From: Desulfonatronovibrio hydrogenovorans DSM 9292 | Lineage (GTDB): Bacteria; Desulfobacterota; Desulfovibrionia; Desulfovibrionales; Desulfonatronovibrionaceae | NCBI RefSeq assembly: GCF_000686525.1 | Contig: NZ_JMKT01000015.1 | Location: 124,001-188,000, forward strand | Length of the DNA: 64,000 nt | Direction: 5' to 3' | Shown: in pieces, positions 49,371-54,055 of the stretch | How positions within the stretch are numbered: position 1 is the first letter of the stretch | How the letters are laid out: each line of letters opens with the position of its first letter | Made by a program: the position numbers and the translations under genes | The notes under the pieces: generated by a model | The model's database searches: none | The model's input: the letters and a program-made list of their open reading frames with translations, nothing else | What the model was told of the DNA's origin: nothing

Positions 49371-50531
49371 ATGAGTGATGAAGAATTTCAAAGACAGGTT
49401 TTTCAGGCCAGGATAATGGAATCATTAGGCATTCTGGCCGGAGGTGTAGCTCATGACTTCAACAACCTTCTTCAATCCATGCTTGGGAACGTGGAGCTGG
49501 TCTGTCTGAAAATGGCTGATGATTGTTCAGACAAAAAAAGACTGCAGGTTGTGGAAAAATCTATTGACCGGGCCTCCCTTTTGATCAGGCAACTGCTTTT
49601 ATTCAGCGGACGGGTCGCAGTTCACAGAAAACCAACAAACCTCGTTGAGTTAATAAAAAAAAGTGTTGACAACCTGGAGGACAGTGTATCCGGGAAATTG
49701 GATATTGAACTCGCACTGGACAATGGGACCTGGCCAATCAAGGCCGATCCGGTCTATGTTGATCAGGTAGTCATGAACTTGGTTTCCAACGCTGTGGAAG
49801 CCATGAACGGCAAGGGCCAGCTGAGTTTAACGACTAAAAATATTACCCTTGATAGCAATGAATTCCCTAATCTTGAGCCTGGATCATATGTGTCCATGAG
49901 TGTTTCAGATACTGGATGCGGAATGGACAAGGAAAGCCTGGATCATCTTTATGATCCTTTTTTTTCGACCAAAAAAGGCAGTAAAAAGATCGGGTTGGGA
50001 TTGGCCTGTGTTTATGGGATCGTAAAGGCTCACCATGGCCACATAACCTGTAGCAGTGAACCCGGGATAGGGACGTGTTTTGAAATCTACTGGCCTGCAC
50101 TGCCTGAGGCAACTGTTCAGGCGGATTGTAAGAAGCTAAAACCTGAACTTAAGCAAGGAAAACCGTCCAAGACTATCTTGGTGGTGGACGATGAAGCAGA
50201 TATAAGGGAGTTGACCAGGGATTCCCTTGCTTACCTGGGCTATAAGGTCATTACTGCTGAAAGCGGCGAGCAGGCCCTTGAACTTTATAGCAGTTCCGGG
50301 CAGTCAATAGACATGGTTGTTCTTGATTTGAACATGCCGGGTATGGGCGGGCATGCATGTCTTGAAAAGCTTCTAAGTATGGATTCTCAGGCAAAAGTGC
50401 TGATTGCCAGCGGGTATTTGTCTAATGGACATTCAAGGGAATCCGTGAGGTCAGGAGCAACTGGGTATATCGGCAAACCGTACATGCTCTCAGATCTGGC
50501 AGCCAAGGTCCATGATATCCTTCATGAATGA
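49371..50531 (+). CDS. Hybrid kinase without sensor domain
   Basis: A 386-residue protein that consists only of transmitter and receiver: HisKA with H28 in GGVAHDFNNLLQ, HATPase (LVSNAVEAMNGKG, DTGCGMD, FFSTKKGSKKIGLGLA), and a receiver (VVLDLNMPGMGG, IGKPYM). It starts ten residues before the HisKA of its paralogues, as if the sensor part had been cut off. The G2 box reads KKIGLGL where paralogues have GQGTGLGL, which may weaken ATP-lid function. It has its own upstream region and AGGGG ribosome site. It may be controlled by another protein or act as a phosphatase or shuttle. Confidence 0.88.
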   Translation: MSDEEFQRQVFQARIMESLGILAGGVAHDFNNLLQSMLGNVELVCLKMADDCSDKKRLQVVEKSIDRASLLIRQLLLFSGRVAVHRKPTNLVELIKKSVDNLEDSVSGKLDIELALDNGTWPIKADPVYVDQVVMNLVSNAVEAMNGKGQLSLTTKNITLDSNEFPNLEPGSYVSMSVSDTGCGMDKESLDHLYDPFFSTKKGSKKIGLGLACVYGIVKAHHGHITCSSEPGIGTCFEIYWPALPEATVQADCKKLKPELKQGKPSKTILVVDDEADIRELTRDSLAYLGYKVITAESGEQALELYSSSGQSIDMVVLDLNMPGMGGHACLEKLLSMDSQAKVLIASGYLSNGHSRESVRSGATGYIGKPYMLSDLAAKVHDILHE

Positions 50532-50632
50532 CGATTCAGCATTAACTCATCCAGGAATTGAGGCTTCTGTGGCCAATCAGGCATCTGGTCGATTTTAGTT
50601 GACTTTTGCACTTTTGTTGTTCCATAAAAACG

Positions 50633-50665
50633 ACGCCGTCCGAAATAATATATTCCGGACGGCGT
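50633..50665 (+). terminator. Terminator after the sensorless kinase
   Basis: ACGCCGTCC (50633-50641) and GGACGGCGT (50657-50665) form a perfect 9-bp stem, extended by one G-C pair; a modest T-rich tail (TTTGATTTG) follows. Confidence 0.7.
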
Positions 50666-50744
50666 TTGATTTGTGAGGCAAGTGTAAGTCCACCAGAACA
50701 GCCCCTTTAAGAAAAGCCGGGAATCAAGCCTTAAGGAAGGTCTC

Positions 50745-53228
50745 ATGCAGGAAATCCAGGTCCGCTTCACTCATTCTCAGGAAGAAATTGAGGTATTTAT
50801 TGATGAACTGAAAAATGCCGTGCTGGGTTTTCTGGATATGTACGGTGATCCGGCCTTTCTGGGAGAAGAGTTTTCCCAGTTTATCCAGGGGGACAACAAG
50901 TTTGCCGCTCTTCTTGAAGCTACAGGCAAGGACGAATACGGTTTTTTCAAAGAGGTCATCTCCCAGCTTGAGCCAGCCAACCACGAAACCGAAACCAGGG
51001 TTGTTGTGGGCGGTATTGAACTCCCTTCCAGACTTCTTCTGCCCATTCTGGAAGTAATTATTCCCGGGGATAATCTCTCGGCAATTAAGGATGTTGATAC
51101 TTACGAGCAATTGACCAATATCCGGGTTCCAGATGATCAGCGTCAGGATCTGCAAAAGGTTATGGACAAGTATCCGGTGCGGCTGTCCAAGCATGTGATC
51201 AGGCAGTCAAGGCTGTCCAGGAACGTGGCTTATCAGTTCATGCCCTTTGTTCAGGAGCTTGATGAGTCAGGGCTGAAGAATACCTGGGTTGGTCAGTTCC
51301 ACAAGGGTCTTCTGGAGCAGATGTACCAGAACCGGCCTATATTTGTCCTGCACATGAGCTGCCCGGTCTATTGCCGGTTCTGTTTCCGCAAGCACAAGGA
51401 CTGCCGCAATTTGCCCACCCCCAAGATAGAAGATGTTTTGGAAGCATTGGAGCACATTAAAAAATCCCCCAGGATAAAGGAGATTGTCCTGACCGGTGGT
51501 GAGCCCTTGCTGAACATGGAGACCTTGACCTGTGCCATAGAAGGTTTGGAGCAGATTCCCCACATCCAGACCATCAGGATCGCTTCCAGATGCATTTCTT
51601 ATTATCCGCAGCTTTTTTACGCCCATGATTCATTCTGGCTCAACTATCTCATTGAGAAGAACAGGGCCTTGCAGGCCGACAAAAAGCGAATTGAAATTGC
51701 AACCCACTTCATTCATCCGGATGAAATATCTCATTATAGCCTGGACATTATTTCCAAACTGGTCAGTGAGGGCGTGGGAGTGTACACCCAGACTCCGTTT
51801 TTGAAAGACTGCAATGATTCCGGCCGGGAACTGACCAGCCTGTACAACGAGTTGCGCAGTGTTGGGTCAGAAATTCATTACGTATACATCCCGTGCAGCC
51901 CTATTCAGGGCAACAGGATTTACTGGGCTCCCATCTCATCCGGACATAAGGCTGCCGCCTACATGCGGGCATACCTTTCTGATCGGGCTATTCCTATCAT
52001 CTGTACTGCCACAAAAATTGGCAAGATCGACTGGAATACCAGTGGTTGGGCTGTTGAGCCCTGCACTGAGCATCCAGGTAAAATCTGGATAAGAACGCCT
52101 TATACCGAGGAGTATTTCAAGGAGTTTGCTCCCCAGTTTGAGCTTCAGGACTCCAGGGCAAACAGGGGAGGGACTCTGGACTCGGCTTTCATGGCTGAAA
52201 TAGGGGATCATACCCTTTATCTTGGAGGACTCACAGAGCAGCCTGTTGAACCTGAACCCTTCAGCGAGGCCAATTTAAGTACCCTCCAGCAGGAGATCAG
52301 GAAGGACCAGCGTCTGGCTTATTCCATCGTAGATACAGGGGTAAAGGCCCTGAAACGGACCCATCTGACTACAGTGGAGATGGATATTGAGGCGTTGGAG
52401 GATTTTCATGATTCCATAGAATATATAGCAAAGGATAATAGTATCAGCGATGTTGTCCTGACCGCCAAGGAGAGCATCTTAAACTCCATTGAAATGCTGG
52501 GAATGTTTTCCAGAGAGTTGCAGACCGTCCCTCATGTCAAGGCGATGCGCATCCGAAGCCTGACCTTTGCCTATTCACCCGAGCTTTATACTCCTGAAGT
52601 ACTGGATACCATCTGCAACCTGAATAATCTGAACCCGGCCAATCCTACCCGGGTGGAGCTGGAAACCCAGTTTATTCATTCAAGCGAACTGACCGAGCTG
52701 CACGGAGACCTGATCAGGGAGTTTATTGCCAGGGGAGTCACGGTTTACAACAATATCCTTTTACTTTCCGGGATCAACGATAACCCGGAAGAGATGAAAA
52801 GGATCTGCTACAGATGTCGACAGGTCGGGATAGAGCTTATGCTTCTTTATATTGCTGGAATGCCTGTTCAGGACAGGTGGAATGCCAGCCGGCCCATTGA
52901 TGCCTCTTCGGTCATCCACATTGCCACCCATTTGAGGCGTTACCAGAGTGGCCGGGAGGTTCCTCTTTACGCTGTCAAGACACCCCTGGGTGATGCTGAT
53001 TTCAATTTTACCGCCAAAGTGGTCAGGATTGGAGATTACGGCTCCGGGAAAGGGGATGAGCAAGTCTGGATGAAGCTTCTGCCCTATACCCTTGACTATT
53101 ATCAAAAACTGGCCCCGGGTTTTGTCTGGCCAGAAGGGATCAGCCAGGAAGAAGGGCATCCTGTTGTTCCAGTCAGAGGGCTGGTAGTTAAAAGCAATAA
53201 AGATTTTTTTCTTGCTGGCAGCAGGTAA
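50745..53228 (+). CDS. Double KamA-like radical SAM protein
   Basis: An 827-residue protein made of two KamA-like halves. The first (about 60-480) has the lysine aminomutase-type cluster motif CPVYCRFC (C206, C210, C213) and TGGEP (about 250-254), so it should bind [4Fe-4S] and S-adenosylmethionine. The second (about 530-800) aligns with the first (VVLTAKESIL against IVLTGGEPLL; VELETQFIHSSEL against IEIATHFIHPDEI) but has no cysteines of the motif, so it cannot bind that cluster. The PGGGGK lysine for pyridoxal phosphate is missing, so lysine 2,3-aminomutase activity is unlikely. Typical KamA proteins have about 420-470 residues. AAGGAAGG precedes the ATG; it stands alone. Confidence 0.88.
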   Translation: MQEIQVRFTHSQEEIEVFIDELKNAVLGFLDMYGDPAFLGEEFSQFIQGDNKFAALLEATGKDEYGFFKEVISQLEPANHETETRVVVGGIELPSRLLLPILEVIIPGDNLSAIKDVDTYEQLTNIRVPDDQRQDLQKVMDKYPVRLSKHVIRQSRLSRNVAYQFMPFVQELDESGLKNTWVGQFHKGLLEQMYQNRPIFVLHMSCPVYCRFCFRKHKDCRNLPTPKIEDVLEALEHIKKSPRIKEIVLTGGEPLLNMETLTCAIEGLEQIPHIQTIRIASRCISYYPQLFYAHDSFWLNYLIEKNRALQADKKRIEIATHFIHPDEISHYSLDIISKLVSEGVGVYTQTPFLKDCNDSGRELTSLYNELRSVGSEIHYVYIPCSPIQGNRIYWAPISSGHKAAAYMRAYLSDRAIPIICTATKIGKIDWNTSGWAVEPCTEHPGKIWIRTPYTEEYFKEFAPQFELQDSRANRGGTLDSAFMAEIGDHTLYLGGLTEQPVEPEPFSEANLSTLQQEIRKDQRLAYSIVDTGVKALKRTHLTTVEMDIEALEDFHDSIEYIAKDNSISDVVLTAKESILNSIEMLGMFSRELQTVPHVKAMRIRSLTFAYSPELYTPEVLDTICNLNNLNPANPTRVELETQFIHSSELTELHGDLIREFIARGVTVYNNILLLSGINDNPEEMKRICYRCRQVGIELMLLYIAGMPVQDRWNASRPIDASSVIHIATHLRRYQSGREVPLYAVKTPLGDADFNFTAKVVRIGDYGSGKGDEQVWMKLLPYTLDYYQKLAPGFVWPEGISQEEGHPVVPVRGLVVKSNKDFFLAGSR

Positions 53229-53283
53229 GACCACAGGGGCAAAGACAGCCTGAATCCGAGACCTGTCTGATCATATGGCAAAG

Positions 53284-53309
53284 GACTGCAGTATGGATGC
53301 GTTGCAGTC
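53284..53309. terminator. Weak hairpin between convergent genes
   Basis: GACTGCA / TGCAGTC (7 bp, 12-nt loop) lies between the converging KamA-like and M23 genes. No strong T-run. Confidence 0.35.
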
Positions 53310-53350
53310 TATTTCAGGGGCATCTAAGGCTTTGGTGATTAAAACCATGT

Positions 53351-54055
53351 TCATGGCTCAGGTCTTTTTAGACCTTTGATTTTCAAGAGCAGGTTGGGGT
53401 CCGGGCAATGTTCCAGAAACTTGTCCCTGTCTTTTAAAGTGCACACACCAGGAAAATCCCCTGCTCGTCCTTCAAGGTCCTTAATGATTTCAAAGTGAAG
53501 ATGAGGCGGCCAGCTGCCATTTTCATGCCTTTCCCCCACAGCAGCAATCTGCTGACCTGCAGTAATTGCCTGACCCTTGCTGAGGATTTCCAGGCTCTTT
53601 CGGCTCAGGTGTCCATACAAGGTGAAAAAGGTTCTCTTTTCCAGGCTGTGCTCAAGAATGATGGTTGGCCCGTAGTCGCCAAAAGCATTGTTGTCCTGGA
53701 AACTATGCACCACTCCATCCAAAGGAGCCAGGACAGGGGTCCCGGCAGCAACCCACAAATCCAGGCCTATATGCAGAGTGCGCCTCTGGCTGTGGTCCTC
53801 TAATGCGGCAAATACAGGGCTTTTATCATAAATTGTCCTGTTTTCATTATACCTTCCAATGCCGATCCGGGCGCCGGCATTGGAAAGCTTTGTAAAAATA
53901 TATTTTGTGAAGCTGTCCGGGTCTGCAACGTCGATATTTTTCAGTTCCGGATTGTCAGCTGTGAAATCAAAGAAGATGATTTTTTCCTGATTTAGATCCC
54001 AGGGCAAAATGTTGGCACTGTTTGCCTTTGTGAGCAGATTTTCCAGATTTTTCAT
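53351..54055 (-). CDS. M23 family metallopeptidase domain protein
   Basis: A 234-residue protein with a LytM/M23 fold: H95 and D99 in LHIGLDLW and H187 in PPHLHFE are the zinc ligands. The segment AGTPVLAPLDGVVHSF ... DYGPTIILEH and the ending CPDPNLLL match the M23 module that is fused to class III aminotransferases and aminoglycoside-phosphotransferase-like domains in other bacteria; here it is free-standing. It has no signal peptide, so it may not act on peptidoglycan. It is last in the minus-strand block. Confidence 0.82.
   Translation of the reverse strand: MKNLENLLTKANSANILPWDLNQEKIIFFDFTADNPELKNIDVADPDSFTKYIFTKLSNAGARIGIGRYNENRTIYDKSPVFAALEDHSQRRTLHIGLDLWVAAGTPVLAPLDGVVHSFQDNNAFGDYGPTIILEHSLEKRTFFTLYGHLSRKSLEILSKGQAITAGQQIAAVGERHENGSWPPHLHFEIIKDLEGRAGDFPGVCTLKDRDKFLEHCPDPNLLLKIKGLKRPEP

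Follow-up and report, generated by a model that had tools for sequence, protein, structure and literature searches.

A KamA-like radical SAM protein fused to a degenerate KamA-like second half in Desulfonatronovibrio and its relatives

Lysine 2,3-aminomutase (KamA/AblA), represented in the PDB by the Clostridium subterminale enzyme (2a5h), shifts an amino group of its substrate to the adjacent carbon, with Asp293 and Asp330 as what we take to be the aspartates that hold the side-chain amine of lysine. The pocket near the pyridoxal phosphate (PLP) sets the substrate, since the variants Asp331Gly of the B. subtilis enzyme and Asp339His of the P. gingivalis enzyme gain alanine 2,3-aminomutase activity (PMC9850924). 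For another KamA-family radical SAM protein, the EF-P beta-lysylation protein EpmB, lysine is not believed to be the natural substrate (PMC6522883), and in FbiC (FO synthase) two radical-SAM-type barrels are fused in one chain, both of which make a radical (PMC11917521). In the titles and abstracts of open-access papers on radical SAM pseudoenzymes and KamA fusions, we found no obvious case matching the protein described below.

In a window of 64,000 nucleotides of the Desulfonatronovibrio hydrogenovorans DSM 9292 genome, we analysed a gene that had been predicted from its sequence to encode two homologous KamA-like halves in one chain, the second of them dead (Table 1). On the whole protein, Pfam recognises a single radical SAM domain (residues 206-260) and NCBIfam gives two KamA-type matches. 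With each half scanned alone against NCBIfam, KamA-type models matched both, TIGR03820 over residues 113-418 of half 1 (E 1.2e-33) and TIGR04368 over residues ~549-751 of half 2 (E 8.7e-21), confirming the two-part make-up, and the homology of the halves to each other was equally clear by hhalign (probability 99.7, E 1.9e-26, 29% identity over 255 columns). The N-terminal domain of the window copy has no Pfam match at E<=1 and its profile matches none of the KamA paralogs; a family assignment was sought and none was found.

Table 1. Features of the fusion gene and its product, with positions in the window
Feature	Position	Strand	Basis
Ribosome-binding site AAGGAAGG ahead of the ATG	50733..50740	+	Read directly from the sequence
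Fused double KamA-like radical SAM protein, 827 aa	50745..53228	+	Intact ORF from the ATG at 50745 to the stop codon ending at 53228; orthologs of the same architecture, 49-81% identity
N-terminal domain, residues 1-110, this family only	50745..51074	+	Own profile; ortholog identity 38-82%
Half 1, residues 111-472, probable catalytic KamA-like barrel	51075..52160	+	NCBIfam KamA models, structural match to 2a5h, orthologs
CPVYCRFC, CX3CX2C with putative [4Fe-4S] ligands C206, C210 and C213	51360..51383	+	Invariant in orthologs and KamA paralogs
TGGEP, putative SAM-binding motif, residues 250-254	51492..51506	+	TGG(E/D)P in half 1 of all orthologs
CTATKIGKIDW, residues 420-430, with likely PLP Schiff-base Lys427 (52023-52025)	52002..52034	+	Alignment
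Half 2, residues 473-827, KamA-like half predicted to be dead	52161..53225	+	KamA-type matches, hhalign to half 1, match to 2a5h
Arg538, equivalent of Arg134 of lysine 2,3-aminomutase	52356..52358	+	Alignment; kept in all orthologs
LTAKES, degenerate counterpart of LTGGEP	52458..52475	+	Alignment; varies between orthologs
Asp750, in place of the PLP lysine	52992..52994	+	Alignment; Asp or Glu in all orthologs

The KamA family model TIGR00238 gives the whole protein 162.5 bits, half 1 113.8 bits and half 2 54.3 bits against a cut-off of 199.2, and no curated NCBIfam KamA cut-off is reached by the whole protein, which is therefore a distant relative. By the NCBI cut-offs it stands outside the KamA family, and as far as its residues show it is a divergent relative that would work like a member: a CX3CX2C motif followed by GG(E/D) occurs in half 1 only, the PLP-lysine position is present in half 1 and the barrel fold is found in both halves.

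When a profile of half 2 was run against 297 genomes of the phylum, no other protein exceeded 80.9 bits, compared with 131.5 bits for half 1 of the fusion protein itself. In a maximum-likelihood tree, both halves fell into one group (99/97) apart from 31 single KamA proteins, with each half forming one clade (99/96 and 100/100), and this grouping points to one tandem duplication before the decay of the second copy. The two halves are best explained by a single duplication and later decay of the second copy, both ahead of the split of the three genera that carry the gene, the exact depth of the duplication being uncertain because half 2 sits on a long branch. Import of half 2 from another KamA paralog was ruled out, as the halves are each other's closest relatives both by profile and in the tree. 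A frameshift, a sequencing error or a recent pseudogene was ruled out as well, because all full-length orthologs in the three genera share the architecture: they are 49-81% identical overall, retain half 1 and have a second half that is dead in the same way. For pairs with dS computable for both halves, dN/dS was 0.03-0.13 in half 1 and 0.05-0.29 in half 2, and the identity of the orthologs to the window copy was 62-89% and 37-74%, respectively. Half 2 thus evolves faster and under weaker purifying selection than half 1, yet the selection on it is still purifying.

The AlphaFold2 model of the full-length protein (pLDDT 87.2, pTM 0.91) was built on a shallow alignment of 11 rows, each showing the fusion in full or in part; its high pTM suggests that the halves take up a defined mutual arrangement, and its best PDB match is 2a5h (Z 28.7, 345 residues, 2.8 A). 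Modelled alone from nine sequences, half 2 reached a pLDDT of 83.8 and a pTM of 0.82, with 2a5h as its best PDB match both by Foldseek (E 2.7e-13) and by VIA-align (Z 20.0, 241 residues, 3.2 A, the next entry having Z 11.5). Since lysine 2,3-aminomutase is the closest structure, half 2 is modelled as a KamA fold though dead, as the original prediction held, and the different fold that would have contradicted that prediction is not seen.

The fused architecture occurs in 12 of the 348 genomes of the order, which are all members of the class in the collection used: six are Desulfonatronovibrio, four are Desulfonatronum, of another family, and two represent a further genus in a third family. Three of these copies are incomplete, one being split across two contigs (G033), one cut at a contig end (G004) and one devoid of half 1 (G029). 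Apart from the window's own, no fused protein was present in 297 genomes sampled from the phylum, the plasmid collection held no record with a full-length relative, and only close relatives came up when 84,980 species were scanned by pattern. The fusion to a dead twin is a rare design.

In the copy devoid of half 1 (locus L016, G029:C48:120000-121547, ORF 985-2550), residues 165-475 have been removed by an in-frame deletion that leaves the N-terminal domain and half 2 as a single 521-aa ORF, and no half 1 was found elsewhere in this genome (98% complete). This loss may reflect a gene in decay, a fault of the assembly or a separate use for half 2; such a copy would be odd if half 2 serves half 1 alone, unless the gene is decaying.

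A strong 15-pair inverted repeat lies at 50633-50665, after a histidine kinase gene and between this gene and the fusion gene, and is called as a terminator on the minus strand, the side of its T-run. Given this upstream repeat and a convergent gene next downstream, the fusion gene is probably transcribed alone. The downstream gene (53351-54055, minus strand) encodes an M23-peptidase-like protein, best matched by the middle part of the longer multi-domain PRK06148; it stands beside the fusion gene, in convergent orientation, in four Desulfonatronovibrio genomes and is the only neighbour shared within that genus. No operon partner emerged, no neighbour being conserved across genera, and an Rfam scan of 50300-53500 returned no riboswitch or other RNA element up to E 1. 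Elsewhere, a cysteinyl-tRNA synthetase-like protein of 444 aa lies directly upstream of the ortholog in G005 (L046:11128-12462, plus strand); it scores 285.8 bits, below the cut-off of 340, and is possibly a CysS paralog. Some other KamA-like genes also have unusual arrangements. A long ORF (L068, G192:C76) joins an apparent ATP-grasp-type ligase to a complete KamA-like radical SAM enzyme with APEGRGKTP at the PLP lysine, and at G000:C10:169950-174284 the KamA-like L006 (521 aa, with a long N-terminal extension) and L002 (372 aa) lie ~3 kb apart in opposite orientation, a pairing of similar genes that is seen in several relatives.

As predicted, half 1 retains CPVYCRFC (residues 206-213) and TGGEP (residues 250-254), and Arg215, just past the former, aligns with Arg134 of lysine 2,3-aminomutase. 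The motifs CPVYCRFCFRK, TGG(E/D)P and CTAT-x-IGK-(I/M)-DW are common to half 1 of all orthologs, and in the alignment Cys206, Cys210, Cys213, the GG pair, Arg197, Arg215, His321, Gln349 and Lys427 are present in every one of them. The original prediction had also noted the lack of a PGGGGK pyridoxal site. The string is truly absent; the lysine position itself is conserved, as Lys427 is invariant and occupies the alignment column of the lysine that holds PLP in lysine 2,3-aminomutase and of the PGGGGK lysine in AblA paralogs. Moreover, PGGGG is missing from single-domain KamA paralogs too, which keep GK (L004 TNIGKIP, L002 SHAEGKIEV, L052 TPYGKVP), and in an alignment with the other KamA proteins of the genome GK is at least 90% conserved at this position. 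For these reasons a missing pyridoxal site was the wrong conclusion, and the absence of PGGGG is, judged by these alignments, a misleading sign. Half 1 is probably an active radical enzyme and a relative of lysine 2,3-aminomutase.

The substrate of half 1 is probably not lysine, because both aspartates assigned to the lysine amine are replaced, by Ser385 (for Asp293) and Ala422 (for Asp330), which are invariant in the aligned orthologs; the assignment of Ala422 hangs on a two-residue alignment gap, its ungapped counterpart being Cys420, which is likewise non-acidic. These replacements make the suggestion of a new substrate plausible. A canonical AblA (749.7 bits) is separately encoded in the same genome and AblB is present too, so lysine is already catered for. 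As a changed aspartate near PLP gives an alanine aminomutase, a role in beta-alanine supply was also considered and set aside: 5 of the 12 carriers and 6 of 49 non-carriers lack aspartate decarboxylase (PF02261), but the other 7 carriers possess both genes, and several of the genomes are incomplete.

Half 2 has lost all three cluster cysteines in every ortholog and bears LTAKES in place of LTGGEP, in agreement with what had first been noticed. Across the aligned orthologs GG(E/D) is lost, the counterpart of His321 is Gln or Trp and that of Gln349 is Asn. Judged by these losses and by the acidic residue at the PLP-lysine position, half 2 can hold neither the cluster nor PLP, and probably not SAM either. 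It does retain equivalents of Arg215, Arg278, His324, Glu327, Asn357 and Asp358, and has invariant residues of its own among nine orthologs, e.g. Arg602, Arg604, Ser605, His645, Glu648, Asn678 and Asp679.

We lean towards a reading in which half 1 depends on SAM and PLP and works like a 2,3-aminomutase on a non-lysine substrate, with half 2 as a captured pseudo-subunit. The three cysteines of half 1 would hold a [4Fe-4S] cluster, the GGE region would bind SAM and Lys427 would carry PLP as a Schiff base; cleavage of SAM would yield a 5'-deoxyadenosyl radical to abstract a hydrogen from the PLP-bound amino-acid substrate, whose amino group would then probably shift to the adjacent carbon as in lysine 2,3-aminomutase. 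Half 2 would be a folded KamA-like body, most likely taking the place that a second subunit has in ordinary KamA oligomers, or else forming or controlling the way into the half-1 active site. More tentatively, and with somewhat more doubt than confidence on our part, the chain could be a catalytic/pseudocatalytic pseudo-dimer, a PLP-radical aminomutase for a non-lysine amino acid in which the duplicate serves as a built-in subunit that completes or gates the half-1 site.

The invariance of Lys427, in register in all aligned half-1 and single KamA sequences, is hard to explain without PLP, and this makes it unlikely that half 1 is a PLP-free radical SAM enzyme of other chemistry, with half 2 as a macromolecule- or peptide-binding module presenting a large substrate. 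The absence of PGGGG and the loss of both lysine-recognition aspartates would agree with such an enzyme, as would the conserved residues that half 2 has for itself (e.g. invariant Arg602, Arg604 and His645), an N-terminal domain without relatives that could bind a partner, and the link of the KamA relative EpmB to the modification of a protein, EF-P (PMC6522883), but no substrate-like partner gene is conserved alongside across genera. Half 2 could also be the mere remnant of a decaying tandem duplication, functionless itself, as its faster divergence and the loss of every cofactor-binding motif tested would suggest. We regard this as quite improbable: half 2 is an uninterrupted reading frame of full length in every complete copy from the three genera, its dN/dS remains at 0.05-0.29, many of its residues are invariant among nine orthologs and its model folds confidently alone.

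An ancillary role in the N-acetyl-beta-lysine osmolyte pathway (ablA/ablB) seems very improbable to us. The named hosts, Desulfonatronovibrio and Desulfonatronum, are salt-loving genera, in one Desulfonatronum genome (G037) the gene adjoins a PAS-LuxR regulator, ablA and ablB, and in G033 an ablA-like gene shares the contig of one gene fragment, ~12 kb away from it. However, ablA and ablB are on a different contig from the fusion gene in G000, the gene is ~170 kb from ablA/ablB in the single-contig genome G025, and G027 and G035 have no ablB match.

With a pseudo-subunit fused to an aminomutase-like half as the preferred reading, the protein could add a beta-amino-acid-forming activity on a non-lysine substrate, and a radical SAM enzyme fused to its dead copy would offer a clean system for what a non-catalytic radical SAM domain contributes. 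Compared with lysine 2,3-aminomutase, the barrel fold is common to both halves, and the CX3CX2C and GG(E/D) motifs, the Arg134 equivalent and the PLP-lysine position are common to half 1. Unlike that enzyme, the fusion protein is 827 aa long and carries a dead second barrel as well as a unique N-terminal domain, it lacks PGGGG and has Ser and Ala for Asp293 and Asp330, and it scores 175 bits with the AblA model TIGR03820 against a cut-off of 525.4. The glutamate (TIGR04368) and arginine (TIGR04468) 2,3-aminomutase models rank near the top of the families that match the whole protein and take the first two places for half 2, but their cut-offs are far off (172.5 bits against 650 and 169.9 against 600), and those enzymes have no second barrel. 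EpmB, likewise a KamA-family radical SAM protein, has a single barrel, and its model TIGR03821 gives the fusion protein 129.9 bits against 369.3. In FbiC, as here, two radical-SAM-type barrels share one chain, but both FbiC domains make the radical, which half 2, devoid of the cluster cysteines in every ortholog, would be unable to do, and unlike those of FbiC the two halves of the fusion protein appear to have arisen by duplication.
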